From Akkermansiaceae bacterium (lineage in GTDB: Bacteria; Verrucomicrobiota; Verrucomicrobiia; Verrucomicrobiales; Akkermansiaceae): a DNA stretch of 32,404 nucleotides. Location of the stretch: contig CANHPN010000027.1 in assembly GCA_947462535.1 (NCBI GenBank), forward strand, positions 1 through 32,404, read 5' to 3'. A model generated the notes under the pieces. That model did no database searches. It worked only from the letters and a program-made list of their open reading frames with translations, and was not told the DNA's origin. The position numbers and the translations under genes are program-made. This document shows positions 3,142 to 26,831 of this stretch, piece by piece (position 1 is the stretch's first letter; the number at the start of each line of letters is the position of its first letter).

Positions 3142-3283
3142 CAAAAGGCCAATCGAAAGGCACAGTGAAAGCGCCGGGATAAACCGGCTTGGAATAGAGA
3201 ATGAAAGAGTCTTACTGAGAAAACCTAGCCAGTCGCTCTGGTCACAAGCCCTACGCTGGGAGCGGTGACGTTCCGGGTGTTGC

Positions 3284-3841
3284 ATGGGTGCGTGGCGACG
3301 CAGGCCAGCCATCGAGCTCCAAAATCCACACTTCCGGGGAGGCCGGGCCTATGCGGGGTATCTGGAGGCGCGGGCGAATGACGCCAAGGGAGCCGTGACG
3401 GATGCGGCGCTCAAGGAATTGAGGCGGGGATGGTGTCTGGGTGAGAGGTGTTTTGCGGAAAAGGTGTTGGAGGCGCTCGCCGGTGGAGCCCGCCCGAAGC
3501 GGAGGAAGGGCAGCGTGGCGGGAGCCGCCGCAAGGGCCCACGACGAGGCGGAGGCCGAGCGGCTCGCGGTGGCCGCCTTGCGAGCAATGGACGCGCCCAC
3601 CGAGGCGTCGCAGTTGTTCGGCAAGGGGAAGTGGGTCGATGAAACCGCAGTGGTGGCCGCACTGATCCGGAAACAAACCGGAGTGAGAAACCGCTGGGTG
3701 GCGGAACGTCTCGGGATGGGACACGATGGCAACGTGACTCGCGCAATCCGCAGGGTGAACGAATACCCTGCGTGGAAATCCAAGCTGCTGAGTCTCGAAT
3801 CAATGCTTGTTAGTCGCGACCTATTGATGCGGAGAGTCTAG
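3284..3841 (+). pseudogene. C-terminal fragment of a REP-associated tyrosine transposase (RAYT)
   Basis: The 185-residue frame contains LEARAN followed by LRRGWCLGERCFAEKVLEAL, then a basic Ala/Glu-rich linker (AHDEAEAERL) and a C-terminal helix-turn-helix-like end (VRNRWVAERLGMGHDGNVTRA). This is the C-terminal half of planctomycete/verrucomicrobial RAYT proteins. The N-terminal Y1 nuclease domain, with its HxH metal site and catalytic Tyr, is absent from the frame and from the upstream 300 bp. RAYTs are thought to mobilise REP hairpins. The fragment lies between two copies of a 21-bp imperfect repeat; the right copy overlaps its last codons. The annotated ATG is arbitrary. Homology was judged by eye and supports family membership well, but not activity. 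Confidence 0.65.
3801..3821. repeat. Right copy of 21-bp imperfect direct repeat flanking the RAYT fragment
   Basis: CAATGCTTGTTAGTCGCGAC at 3801 matches the copy at 3083 in 18 of 21 positions, including an uninterrupted 13-bp identity. It overlaps the last codons of the RAYT fragment. Confidence 0.5.
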
Positions 3842-5625: not shown

Positions 5626-5714
5626 GGGCGGGAGCGTCTTGAAAGGACGCGGGTTTTCCAAGTGCCAAGTGCGGTCCGTGAAAAAGATGGGAAAGCTTTT
5701 AAAATTTTTTGAAC

Positions 5715-5871
5715 ATTTGTGAAACTTGAAGGTCTTACCGCCATGAAAGCAGCGAGCAATCGCTCTTTCATGTAAGGGTGCAACAGCATGGTTGTCTGCC
5801 GAATCCTACGGGTGTGGGCGTGGGTATGACGATTTGGCCGCCGGGGAAGTGATTCCCCGGCGGCTTTTTTT
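5715..5871 (+). ncRNA. Candidate structured small RNA or leader ending in an intrinsic terminator
   Basis: No plus-strand gene precedes the strong plus-strand terminator at 5837-5871, so something else must be transcribed towards it. At 5742-5772 a near-perfect hairpin folds: CATGAAAG pairs with CTTTCATG, one bulged C, AGCGA pairs with TCGCT, capped by a GCAA (GNRA) tetraloop. A weak CAAC/GTTG hairpin follows at about 5780-5793, then the terminator. The AT-rich stretch at 5700-5730 (TTGAAC at 5709-5714) could hold a promoter, but no clear -10 box is visible. Two tiny reading frames inside (10 and 13 codons) are not convincing. It could be a free sRNA or an attenuating leader of the sulfatase at 6053. 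The family is not recognised and the boundaries are approximate. Confidence 0.45.
5837..5871 (+). terminator. Strong intrinsic terminator
   Basis: GCCGCCGGGGAA (5837-5848) pairs perfectly with TTCCCCGGCGGC (5853-5864) around a GTGA loop, a 12-bp GC-rich stem followed directly by seven T residues. The U-tract makes it functional on the plus strand. Confidence 0.9.
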
Positions 5872-6052
5872 ATCTCTGAGGTCCCTACGATAGGCGTGTT
5901 CGAAAAGTGGCCGGGCGGGCCGCTCGATCAGCGGCTGCGGCTTATGAAGCGATGGTGGATCTTTGCAATTCCATACCCGCCGCCTCGGGGTCCGGTGTTG
6001 ACAGAGTGGGGCGATGGGCTTGGTGTGTGGTGTCATTCATTACCGAAAGCCC

Positions 6053-18164: not shown

Positions 18165-19994
18165 TCACCAATCGACGGTGATGCCGGCGTAGAGGCCGGT
18201 ACCGGCACCCTCGGTGGTAGTGCCGTAGAAGCTGGAGAGCTGATAGTTCTCGTCGAGGGCGTTCTCGACGCGGGCGTGGAGCTTCACCCTGTCGCAAACC
18301 TGATAGGAGCCGTAGAGGCGGGCGACGGTGTAGGATTCCAGCGGATCGCCGCCCCAGGAGTGGTCGGAGAGGTGGGTGGCTCCGATGCCGACGAGGGATT
18401 TCGGCGTGGGTTTCCAGTCGAGCGAGGCGGTGGCGGCGTTCTTTGGTTGGTCGCTGAGACTCTCGTGGAGATAGGTCCAGGCGAGGCGGTAGTTGAGGGA
18501 GTTTTCCAGCCAGGCCCCGCGGAGCCCGAGCTCGAGGCCGTCGGTGGTGGTGGTTCCTGGGAGGTTGGCGGCGGTGTAGGTCGTGAAGTCGCCGGAGGGA
18601 TTGGCGTAGGATTCGATGGCGTCCTCGATGCGGTTGGAGAACCAAGTGGCTTCGAGCGTGTGGTGGCCGCCGATTTTCTGTTCGATACCGATGTCCCAGC
18701 CGAGCGAGGATTGGGCGTCGAGGTCGGGGTTGGCGACGTATTTGAAATAGCCGAGGTCGATATTGTAAAACAGATCGTTGTAACTCGGGGCGCGGAACGA
18801 TCGTCCGAGTCCGGCGCGGAAGGAGGTGCCGGATTTCTCCAGTTGATAGATCGAGCCGATGCGCCAGGTAAATTCGTCACCGTAGGAGTCGTAATTCTCC
18901 CAGCGGAACGCCGCGGTTGTGGTCAGGCTTTCTACGGGCTCCCACTCGAGGGCGGAGTGGATGCCGTAGCGGTCGCCGCCTTCATCGACGCCATCGGTGA
19001 CTTGGAACGAGTCGTGATGGAAAAAGCCGCCCGCAAGGAGGCGGAGGTTTTCGGCGAGGGTGATCTCATGGTCGGTGGAAATGCTGCCGGCGCGCATGTC
19101 GCTGCCGTAGTTTCCGTAAGCAGAGTCGTTGTCGTAGAATTCCTGCTGGTAGCCCGCGAGGAAGCGGGCGGTCCAGCAGGAGGAGATTTTGCCGGTGGCG
19201 TAAAGGGTGGCGAGGCTGGAATCCACGCGGTTCTCGGAAGCGCCGTGGTCATTGTAGAAATTATCGAACGCGCGGAAAGTGGTGCCTACGGTCCAGACCG
19301 AGTCGATCCTGCCTTCCATGCGGAGGGCGGTGCGGCCTTGGTGGAAATCTTCGTTAGCCCCGTCGTTTTCGGTTTCCTCGTAACCGCCGGAGAGGAAATA
19401 GGAGAGTTTGCCGGTTTCTCCCTGAAACATGGCATTCGCGGCGAGCGATTGGAACGAGCCCGCTTCGAAAGTGGCCGAGCCGCGCGGATCGCCGGTGCCA
19501 CGCGGCGTCTCCATCCAGAGCACGCCGCCGATGGATTCGCCGCCGTAGATGGCACCCTGTGGACCGCGCAGGACCTCGATGTTTCCGACGTCGTAAACCC
19601 GGCCGCCGGAAAGGACATTGCCGAGAGGCGTGGAGGAGTCGCTGAGGCGTATGCCGTCGATGACGACCTGGGAGTCGGCGGTTTTCGTGCCGCGGATGAA
19701 CAGCGAGCTGACGGCTCCGGATTGTCCGCCGGTGGAGGTGGAAATCACTCCGGGCACGGCGTTGAGCGCGTCGCGGAGTTGGAGGATGCCTTGGTTTTGC
19801 AGGGCTTCGGGATCGAGCATGGTCACCGCAGAGGTGACGGTGGCGGCCGGGCGGGGGACTCGCAGGGCGGACAGGATCAGCGGTTCGAGTTCGGCCTTTC
19901 TTTCCTCCGCACGGGCGGGAGAGTGGGCAAGCAGGGTGATCAGTGCGAAGGCACTCCGGCGGGAGCCTCTGGGAGGCGTTGGTTGTAGTAGCAT
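18165..19994 (-). CDS. btuB: TonB-dependent outer-membrane receptor, BtuB-like (cobalamin uptake)
   Basis: The 609-residue protein has a signal peptide ending near Ala29 (HSPARA), a TonB-box-like segment (EPLILSALR, about 37-45) and a plug domain (about 50-160) with [27 protein letters not shown] and [21 protein letters not shown] beta-barrel follows and ends in an aromatic residue (ITVDW), the outer-membrane insertion signal. Size matches BtuB, which is shorter than siderophore receptors. The assignment to cobalamin comes mainly from the cobalamin riboswitch directly upstream. No BtuCDF genes are in the window. The ATG at 19994 gives the signal peptide; the frame continues upstream through the riboswitch only by chance. 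sdaA follows 58 bp downstream. Confidence 0.9.
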
Positions 19995-20035
19995 GGTTTC
20001 TGTCTCAATGTCTGTAAGTCGCAGACGTATGAAAA

Positions 20036-20210
20036 CCCCCTCAGGCTGGTGATCTGGCTGACCGTCCCGCTCTCGCGGTCCGGAATCACAGTGGCGATAC
20101 CGCGCCGGAATCTCACCGGCTTCCCCATCAATTTCCTGCCCCTGCGAGGGGCGTCCTGAAGAGAGTCGGATTTCGCCGACGGCGTGGTGGTATTCCACCG
20201 TGCGTCCCAT
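20036..20210 (-). promoter_or_regulatory. Cobalamin riboswitch
   Basis: Read on the minus strand, the leader contains GCCGGTGAGATTCCGGC (20120-20104) followed by GCGG and the B12 box GCCACTGTGA (20095-20086). It ends in AGCCAGATCACCAGCC before a G-rich stretch at 20036-20040. These are the conserved core and B12-box elements of the AdoCbl-type aptamer. It lies 41 bp before the receptor ATG. A GTCTG/CAGAC hairpin just before the start may form part of the expression platform that hides the initiation region when cobalamin is bound. The 5' boundary is approximate. Confidence 0.92.
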
Positions 20211-20339
20211 GGGCAAGCGTGAAGCTGTAAATGGGAGGAAATGCAGGCTCCTTGAGCGATTCGATCAAATGCACCGCTGGCGAAGGGCTGGAATTTCTTG
20301 GCGCTTGACGGCGGCGCGGCGCGGGATTTCCTTCCCGCC

Positions 20340-25192: not shown

Positions 25193-25804
25193 ATGATCGA
25201 GCCTGAGTTCACCCCAAACCCGAATTTCCCCGCTGTTTTGGGCGAAGACCAGACGGGTGTTGCGGCGGCGTTGATCGATCGGATGGCGAGGGGAGACGGC
25301 AGTGCGCTCACGGAACTTTATGGCATGTGGAGTCCGATCCTGTTAGGAGTATCGGTTCGGATGCTGGGGGACCGCCACGAGGCGGAGGAAATCGTGCAAG
25401 ACGCCTTCGTGCGGATGTGGCACCGCTCGGTTGATTATGACCCGTCTCAATCGCCGCCTTTTGCTTGGGCCTTTGCGGTGATGCGTGGCTACTGCATTGA
25501 CCGCCTGCGCTACCGCCACCGGAGCAAGCGCGATTCCTCGCGCGTGGTTCCCATCCACCTGCATGCGCCTACGGAAGAGAGCGAAGATCCGCGGGTGATG
25601 ATGAAGGACGATTGGCGCCGAGTCCGCGCCGCACTTCAAATTTTACCGCCTGACGAACGCGAGTGTTTGGAACTGGCCGTCTTTCTGGAATACACCCATT
25701 CGGAAATTTCCGCGCACCTCGGAACTCCGCTGGGGACGGTAAAAAACCGACTACGCCGTGCATTGGACAAGGTGCGCAACCACTTATCACGTTATGAATT
25801 CTGA
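25193..25804 (+). CDS. ECF-type RNA polymerase sigma factor
   Basis: The 203-residue protein has region 2 at about residues 27-110 (LGDRHEAEEIVQDAFVRMWH, AWAFAVMRGYCIDRLR) and region 4 at about 140-195 (LPPDERECLELAVFLEYTHS, then LGTPLGTVKNRLRRAL). No region 3 is present, which is normal for group IV sigma factors. It should redirect RNA polymerase to a small regulon when released by its anti-sigma partner, whose gene starts inside the last codons (11-base overlap, translationally coupled). No autoregulatory promoter could be identified upstream. The sequence around region 4 resembles the SigK/SigL-like group paired with RskA-type anti-sigma factors. Confidence 0.93.
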   Translation: MIEPEFTPNPNFPAVLGEDQTGVAAALIDRMARGDGSALTELYGMWSPILLGVSVRMLGDRHEAEEIVQDAFVRMWHRSVDYDPSQSPPFAWAFAVMRGYCIDRLRYRHRSKRDSSRVVPIHLHAPTEESEDPRVMMKDDWRRVRAALQILPPDERECLELAVFLEYTHSEISAHLGTPLGTVKNRLRRALDKVRNHLSRYEF

Positions 25805-26831
25805 CCCACACGAAACCGCAGTCTGGCGGGTATTTGGGATGCTTGATGCCGACGAAGCCGCTGGCTTTGACGAGGCAATGCGCCAATACCCCGAGCTAAG
25901 ATACGCCTACCGGGAAATGAACGTTTTGTGTGCTGCCGTGGCCGCGGCCAGCATTGCGCCGCTACAGCCCCACACGGGTCAATTGGAGCGGCTGCAAGCG
26001 CGCTTGGGGCTACAATCTTCAAAGTCGGTGAATTGGCTGGGCATCTCTGGCTGGGCTGCCGCCGCCGCGGCGCTTACGTTCATTCTGCTGGTGGATCGCA
26101 AATCACCCGTGCCGACGGAAAGCGTCAAGAACGGCGCCACTCCCCATGCCACCAAGCGGGAGGTCCAGATGATTCAAAAAGCTACCGCCCAAGAGCTGGC
26201 CGCCCAGCCATCTCCGGATGTGGGATCCGAGCTGGCCGAAGATGCGACCGCCAACCGAAATGTCGCCACCCAAGAGAACCACGTGAAGTTGGTTACTAAG
26301 GTGGAAACGAAACGCCTTGTTCAGGAGATCGCGGTCTTGCGTGAAAAACTCGAGAGCGTCGAAAAACGCGAACGGCAACGCTTGGAGCCAGTTCAAGGGA
26401 CGGCGTGGCCGATCGTGATGACGATGAGACCGCCGCGTGCGGAAACCCAGATCGTATCTGCAGCAGATGCCGACCCGTCGGTGGTGGGTATGCTAGGTGA
26501 TGCGCTGGCAGGAAAATCATCTTTGGCAGATAACCGGGCGGCACAGGGCGTTGCCGATACTCCATCTGCAGTGCCGATTTATGACCCGGCGACGGGGACT
26601 GGAACTTTAGTCGCGAACAATCTGTCAGACACGAATTTCTGGGTCACTGCGAGGGGTGAAGACAAGCCGCGCTTGCTAGGTAGAATTCCGCAAAGCCGTG
26701 AGGCGTATGAGTCTGTGGAATTCGAGCTCCCTGCGGGCACAATTCCAGACAATTTCGTGATCACCAACGACTCCGCCGGGAAGGACGCTCCTCCGTCCGA
26801 CAAAAACACGGTTCTCATCGGGCCGCGGTAA
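25794..26831 (+). CDS. Membrane anti-sigma factor (RskA-like)
   Basis: The 345-residue protein begins with a short cytoplasmic anti-sigma domain (residues 1-75, HETAVWRVFGMLDADEAAGF). It lacks the HxxxCxxC zinc motif. One membrane span follows at about 81-100. The extracytoplasmic part contains a charged coiled-coil-like helix (about 165-198, TKRLVQEIAVLREKLESVEK) and a C-terminal RskA-like segment (GTLVANNLSDTNFWV, LGRIPQSREAYESVEFELPA). It should hold the sigma factor encoded directly upstream until proteolysis or a signal releases it. The start at 25794 overlaps the sigma gene by 11 bases. The inserted coiled coil makes it longer than typical RskA (about 230 residues), suggesting an extra interaction surface. 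Confidence 0.85.
   Translation: MNSDPHETAVWRVFGMLDADEAAGFDEAMRQYPELRYAYREMNVLCAAVAAASIAPLQPHTGQLERLQARLGLQSSKSVNWLGISGWAAAAAALTFILLVDRKSPVPTESVKNGATPHATKREVQMIQKATAQELAAQPSPDVGSELAEDATANRNVATQENHVKLVTKVETKRLVQEIAVLREKLESVEKRERQRLEPVQGTAWPIVMTMRPPRAETQIVSAADADPSVVGMLGDALAGKSSLADNRAAQGVADTPSAVPIYDPATGTGTLVANNLSDTNFWVTARGEDKPRLLGRIPQSREAYESVEFELPAGTIPDNFVITNDSAGKDAPPSDKNTVLIGPR

Follow-up and report, generated by a model that had tools for sequence, protein, structure and literature searches.

The analysed window, a stretch of 32,404 nucleotides from an Akkermansiaceae bacterium (contig CANHPN010000027.1), harbored a plus-strand segment (5708-5871) that reads as a small-RNA gene composed of a promoter-like element, a predicted transcript of ~130 nt and a strong terminator; from its sequence and conservation, it is almost certainly a conserved stand-alone RNA gene. 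Pfam identified the nearest upstream gene, which lies on the minus strand, as gatC (GatC, 2.4e-20). Downstream, 140-180 nt from the RNA and on the same strand, lay a sulfatase gene, the sulfatase genes starting from 6014. Judged from promoter spacing, the 5' end of the RNA would fall at about 5738-5743, immediately ahead of the first hairpin (P1). The parts of the locus were as follows.

5708-5714, plus strand: -35-like element TTTGAAC; TTGAAC was found in 35 of 35 copies detected by blastn and also precedes divergent copies detected with a model of the RNA only
5732-5735, plus strand: -10-like element GTCT, 17 nt past GAAC; GTC at this distance in 35 of 35 blastn-found and 75 of 77 pattern-found copies
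5741-5871, plus strand: predicted transcript of ~130 nt, delimited by the spacing from the putative promoter and by the terminator; homologous along its length in relatives
5742-5772, plus strand: hairpin P1, 13 bp with bulged C5750 and a GCAA loop, from the predicted fold
5770-5788, plus strand: conserved motif AUGUAAGGGUG(C)AACAGCA between P1 and P2, the most conserved block in alignments A1 and A2, predicted to be only partly unpaired
5791-5833, plus strand: helix P2, GUUGUC (5791-5796) with GACGAU (5828-5833), then GCC (5798-5800) with GGU (5823-5825), from alignment A2
5805-5818, plus strand: hairpin P3, CCUAC-GGGU-GUGGG, in copies of type A, with 100 % of cells paired
5836-5871, plus strand: intrinsic terminator and T tract, with covariation in 54 copies

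A first-pass annotation, made from the letters of this DNA, had described elements that were indeed present where it placed them. Its hairpin at 5742-5772 was recovered as a stem of 13 bp, interrupted by a single bulged C (5750) and capped by a GCAA loop, and its terminator consisted of a stem at 5836-5865 with 12 Watson-Crick pairs and a closing G-T, a loop of four and a T7 tract (5865-5871), facing the plus strand. As it had also remarked, no plus-strand gene stands ahead of this terminator, gatC being oriented the other way. Its additional small CAAC/GTTG hairpin fared less well: the letters are present, yet the fold of the whole segment did not use them and the complement was missing in several copies, while in the conserved helix P2 the partner of GTTGTC is GACGAT.

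Elsewhere in the window, a Cobalamin riboswitch was detected on the minus strand (20027-20174; 43.9 bits against a gathering cut-off of 31.5), where a large frame on the same strand (18165-20216) begins; this frame reads like a TonB-dependent receptor. A match to Group II intron D1D4-6 (3206-3351, plus strand) barely exceeded its threshold (50.4 versus 49 bits) and may be an intron remnant. A minus-strand frame at 543-1232 resembled, from its translation only, an IS30-related transposase and was apparently incomplete. No tRNA or tmRNA was found in the window.

Relatives of the RNA were gathered in three ways. A blastn search with positions 5640-5900 hit 29 of 59 genomes, among them that of the window, some of the matches being short or restricted to the flanks; reading the sequences left 35 true copies, several genomes having at least two. 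One false core match (L009_855) was removed ahead of the promoter count. A pattern scan through a collection of 84,980 species returned 78 matches on 74 stretches. One of these, from Ca. Aegiribacteria, lay inside protein-coding sequence and, judged by eye, looked like chance; the other 77 were all labelled as verrucomicrobial, at various ranks, and mostly as metagenome-assembled genomes (MAGs) of Akkermansiaceae, Verrucomicrobiaceae or Verrucomicrobiales. Named carriers were Haloferula sp. BvORR071, H. luteola, H. rosea, Luteolibacter marinus and L. pohnpeiensis, next to MAGs labelled Akkermansia or Prosthecobacter. Viral contigs displayed no exact match to the pattern. Altogether 81 distinct copies with the exact N17 promoter-like element were collected, the window copy among them, and two stretches (L078 and L084) carried paired copies.

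Third, 54 of the 81 copies served to build a covariance model (R1), on the RNA part only, with the promoter excluded. It matched 87 of 195 genomes of the family (68 of 148 of good quality), counting the window's own genome and several other weak matches that were included without individual reading; each of these genomes had one to six copies, and the matches spanned nine of the 16 genera. One match (genome G176) was rejected, its likeness to the core being limited to a lysine/alanine-rich stretch, plus a terminator; it was the sole match of its genus, and its removal leaves 86 genomes and eight genera. The remaining 108 of the 195 genomes lacked an R1 match under strict search filters, so that absences within the family are not firm. 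At the level of the order, 31 of 239 genomes were matched, all within the family (G176 included). At the level of the phylum, 17 of 387 were matched, 14 within the family (again with G176) and three outside it. These three (E 0.004-0.008) were rejected as weak: two cover only model positions 81-133 or 104-133, and the third, despite a core-like stretch, spans just 58 bases, all of them within long frames on both strands. The order and phylum searches thus returned no convincing match outside the family. The labels of the carriers suggest that the RNA belongs to Akkermansiaceae, including Luteolibacter and Haloferula.

Folding of the whole segment was markedly better than that of shuffled sequences (z = -4.49; none of 200 shuffles equally good), whereas without the terminator the advantage was slight (z = -1.45; 14 of 200 shuffles equally good); folding alone is therefore insufficient to settle the presence of an RNA, and conservation decides. 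The first-pass annotation had named missing conservation of the hairpin in relatives as a refuting outcome, and the comparison of copies did not refute it. In 80 of 81 copies P1 folded into one hairpin with 8 bp or more, the upper stems being variable, and a GNRA loop capped it in only 36 of 81, so that the GCAA loop is no family trait. In the alignment of type A (25 copies), 29 pairs from outer P1, P2, P3 and the terminator were formed in 96.1 % of cells, and 11 of them displayed changes on both sides. None of 500 shuffles reached the covariation score of this alignment (0.277, compared with 0.201 in shuffles, a control that leaves the relatedness among copies in place), and sliding the partners gave no more than 0.113.

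The elements differed in how far such changes reached. Helix P2 was paired in 93.2 % of cells of alignment A2, with changes on both sides in four of nine pairs; in P3 of the type A copies, one of five pairs had changed on both sides and three on one side only. In the mixed alignment (54 copies), both-side changes affected 12 of 17 pairs, and in the terminator 10 of 11 (54 copies). P2, P3 and the terminator are thus supported by compensatory changes. For the stem at 5742-5772, the outcome was divided: two of six outer pairs displayed such changes in the mixed alignment, but in that of type A, in which 87 % of cells of outer P1 were paired, all four outer pairs lacked them. When the mixed alignment was folded automatically, the consensus contained the terminator and no other element; we think that the difference in P2 between copy types is the reason. 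A terminator stem of at least 9 bp was called in 81 of 81 copies, one of which (L063) was cut by the end of its locus, and the tail was not a plain T run in some. In five copies from Haloferula, Luteolibacter marinus and MAGs (L044, L058, L059, L076 and L107), the terminator was followed by TACTCTTGTAC or TTCCCTTGTAC in place of the T run.

The most conserved block of the RNA was AUGUAAGGGUG-N1-3-ACAGCA, located between P1 and P2. Copies from the pattern scan had been selected by the AUGUAAGGGUG..ACAGCA core, those from blastn and the covariance model had not. Within this block, UAA and ACA were predicted to be mostly open and GGGU mostly paired, in the latter case presumably with conserved C residues close to the 5' end.

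Conservation extended to the promoter-like element. In all 35 copies detected by blastn, a set gathered with no requirement for the element, GTC stood exactly 17 nt after TTGAAC. TTGAAC belonged to the scan pattern, so the 77 pattern-found copies provide no evidence for it; GTC was absent from the pattern, and its G, T and C were found in 77, 76 and 75 of these copies, respectively. The spacer was variable, 14 of its 17 columns holding less than 0.5 bits in the 77 pattern copies. Among loci found with the model of the RNA only, 53 had a recognisable core, and 47 of these carried TTGAAC with a gap of 17 or 18 nt to GTC, while six lacked the exact element; many of the 53 overlap the training set, and cores that were too diverged are excluded from the count. 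Regarding more diverged model-found copies, TTGAAC-N17-GTC was present in L166, L178, L179 and L180, L181 displayed ATGAAC-N17-GTCT, and L177 had no such promoter element.

The consensus given for AlgU is GAACTT-N16/17-TCTNN (PMC7641640), and the sigmaE elements given for micA and rybB are GGAACTTTT and GTCAAA (PMC1804206). Because its elements, fixed gap of 17 nt and variable spacer match these published consensus sequences, the putative promoter at 5708-5735 is very probably of the ECF type, with the sigmaE/AlgU shape. Alternatively, TTGAAC-N17-GTC might be a site for another sigma factor or for an activator. Two results speak for this alternative: the search for an ECF gene that itself starts with this element returned none, and a sigma70-like site was scored at 5678-5705 (one found versus 0.4 expected); the agreement with the published consensus in all three respects nevertheless makes it rather improbable.

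Candidate sigma factors were numerous, with seven matches to PF08281 in the window's genome and 17 and 42 in two complete relatives. Upstream of these sigma genes, GAAC-N16-18-GTC was found at none of the 30 loci examined (of the 66 PF08281 matches in the three genomes). An RpoE-like ECF factor was present as a single close orthologue across much of the family. In 30 genomes, its gene displayed the element at its start in none; two of the 30 had a motif match, located at 412 and 1212 nt and thus too far away for an own promoter. A partner gene of ~200 aa overlapped the end of the ECF gene in 29 of 30 loci and presumably encodes an anti-sigma factor. Of the 87 genomes with the RNA, 84 contained the RpoE-like gene, compared with 57 of the 108 without it, a suggestive co-occurrence that has shared ancestry as a confounder. 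The window itself carried, at 25193-26831 on the plus strand, a gene for an ECF sigma factor, with regions 2 and 4 recognised by Pfam, that overlaps a frame of 357 aa without Pfam match, which occupies the place expected for an anti-sigma factor.

A strict motif search through nine genomes gave 27 matches, compared with five in the backward control. Twelve of the 27 were these RNAs, which formed the largest group; four sat at one site adjoining a mutL-like gene, and further matches lay in frames. The window's genome displayed six matches against four in the control, and the strict motif was not clearly common to protein genes. The site adjoining mutL was found in four genomes of another genus (L248, L258, L260 and L267, ~1501-1850), where TTGAAC-N17-GTCTNA stands after AAGAAATTTCT; a gene that we take, from its sequence, to be mutL-like has its 3' end ~260-315 nt away, and in three of the four genomes a conserved hairpin follows the element. 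Here, the sigma factor in question may drive a second transcript.

The first-pass annotation had left the choice between a stand-alone small RNA of about 130-160 nt and an attenuator or riboswitch-like leader of the sulfatase genes. The neighbours of the 81 copies (141 frames) distinguished between the two. Groups of copies retained different conserved neighbours. Upstream, these were a secretin-domain gene in the orientation of the RNA (12 copies; Pfam-confirmed on one representative), gatC in the opposite orientation (11 frames including the window's site, two of which are long and overlap the RNA) and, at three copies, a presumed ksgA-like gene, named from its sequence alone. Downstream, they were an unnamed gene in the opposite orientation (six) and a SurA_N-domain gene in the orientation of the RNA (six; Pfam-confirmed on one representative). 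Of 70 immediate downstream neighbours examined, 39 faced the opposite way and 31 shared the strand of the RNA. According to neighbour clustering, a sulfatase was located downstream only in the window copy and in a close relative (L053), and upstream in L015 and L113.

A constant class of same-strand downstream genes, as expected of a riboswitch or attenuator leader, was thus not observed, and because downstream genes and strands differ among copies, the RNA is not a general leader. In the window, a cis-acting role for the sulfatase genes from 6014 might be suspected from the common strand, the distance of 140-180 nt, the strong terminator standing before the sulfatase and the recurrence of this arrangement in L053. 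The varying downstream genes, more than half of them on the opposite strand, and the occurrence of paired copies on one stretch make such a leader scarcely credible. The other proposal, the stand-alone RNA, was borne out at the level of the predicted transcript by its own promoter-like element, conserved structure, changing neighbours and own terminator. Coding for a small protein is only marginally more credible: AAGGG stands 9 nt ahead of ATG 5788, which opens a frame of 13 codons, but neither the start codon nor the frame length was conserved, the first frame after AAGGG ranged from two to 31 codons without common length (20 commonest classes, 65 of 80 copies), and the compensatory changes keep stems.

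The best reading of these data, which we regard as probable, is an ECF-dependent, self-terminated small regulatory RNA acting in trans; its transcription, ECF control and regulatory function are deduced from the features described above. Envelope or other stress would release an ECF sigma factor, which would transcribe the RNA copies together, the plus-strand copy in the window from the promoter at 5708-5735, and transcription would end at the RNA's own terminator (5836-5871). The RNAs would then act in trans via AUGUAAGGGUG..ACAGCA between P1 and P2, either by pairing with mRNA or by binding a protein.

As to the manner of action, we are about evenly divided on whether the RNA is a base-pairing regulator. 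An Hfq domain was detected in none of 117 genomes of the family and in none of three in a separate check, while five of 14 control genomes were positive, E. coli included; a ProQ domain was detected in none of 60 family genomes, with a positive E. coli control. Because neither chaperone was detected in the family genomes, the RNA is unlikely to work exactly like MicA or RybB. In the window's genome, blastn (E up to 1) revealed no extended complement of the core. With regard to repression of outer-membrane protein mRNAs by pairing, a trait of RNAs of the MicA/RybB kind, complements of the core were not enriched at start codons in 713 start regions at the examined loci once RNA copies had been masked; the excess seen before masking came from the RNA genes themselves.

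These results would also suit the main rival of mRNA pairing, in which the RNA binds or sequesters a protein, in the manner of 6S or CsrB, or binds the ribosome through the conserved motif. In its favor, the motif is near-identical in paralogues and across genera while flanking stems vary, and to this are added the undetected chaperones, the missing extended target and the start codons without enrichment. Against this, the rival has no known partner, Rfam scans of the window and 15 loci gave no 6S or CsrB match, and seed regions of base-pairing small RNAs can be as conserved as the motif seen here; on balance, we consider it rather unlikely. For the preferred reading as a trans-acting regulator, a broader picture can be drawn only tentatively, and we incline against it slightly: a stress response triggered by an ECF factor, in which paralogous structured RNAs share one motif that is read by a protein or the ribosome, or that pairs without known chaperone. 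If true, this would be a convergent, chaperone-free counterpart to the enterobacterial sigmaE small-RNA circuit, in a family without detected Hfq or ProQ.

The first-pass annotation had not recognised the family of the RNA, which agrees with the results of Rfam 15: no family reached its gathering cut-off in the window copy or in 15 loci with other copies. In a permissive search of the window copy (E up to 10), matches to Spot 42, RcsR1 and anti-hemB overlapped the 3' half and terminator (5770-5871) at 15.3-16.4 bits, compared with gathering cut-offs of 49.5-80, and were rejected as being at chance level. Literature searches on small RNAs in Verrucomicrobia, Akkermansia and Luteolibacter, on structured RNA motifs and on ECF-dependent small RNAs yielded no description of it among the records listed. 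The main text of two RNA-discovery papers (PMC11109978 and PMC8632094) holds no words beginning with Akkermansia, Verrucomicrob, Luteolibacter or Haloferula. On the basis of Rfam 15 and these searches, we take the RNA to represent a new, apparently uncatalogued multi-copy small-RNA family. For comparison, a Rfam-based tally of 2022 gives eight catalogued small-RNA families for the whole Planctomycetes-Verrucomicrobia-Chlamydiae group (PMC9029176). The RNA is widespread in its family, strongly conserved and equipped with a defined promoter-like element; it gives direct access to the regulation of stress responses in Verrucomicrobia and to a possible Hfq-free action of small RNAs, and the covariance model is ready for annotating these genomes.

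Among known systems, MicA and RybB of enterobacteria are likewise encoded by intergenic genes whose promoter, with a GAAC -35 and a GTC -10 element, is conserved together with the RNA, and they depend on Hfq (PMC1804206). In contrast to these RNAs of 70-80 nt, the RNA described here is ~130 nt long, occurs in one to six paralogous copies and has no Rfam match, and its family genomes displayed neither Hfq nor ProQ. It thus resembles a stress small RNA in gene architecture, yet cannot be filed in the Hfq-dependent class. With respect to copy number, it is reminiscent of Qrr, a multi-copy small-RNA family in which several similar RNAs per genome share one conserved segment, and from which it differs in promoter class and sequence.
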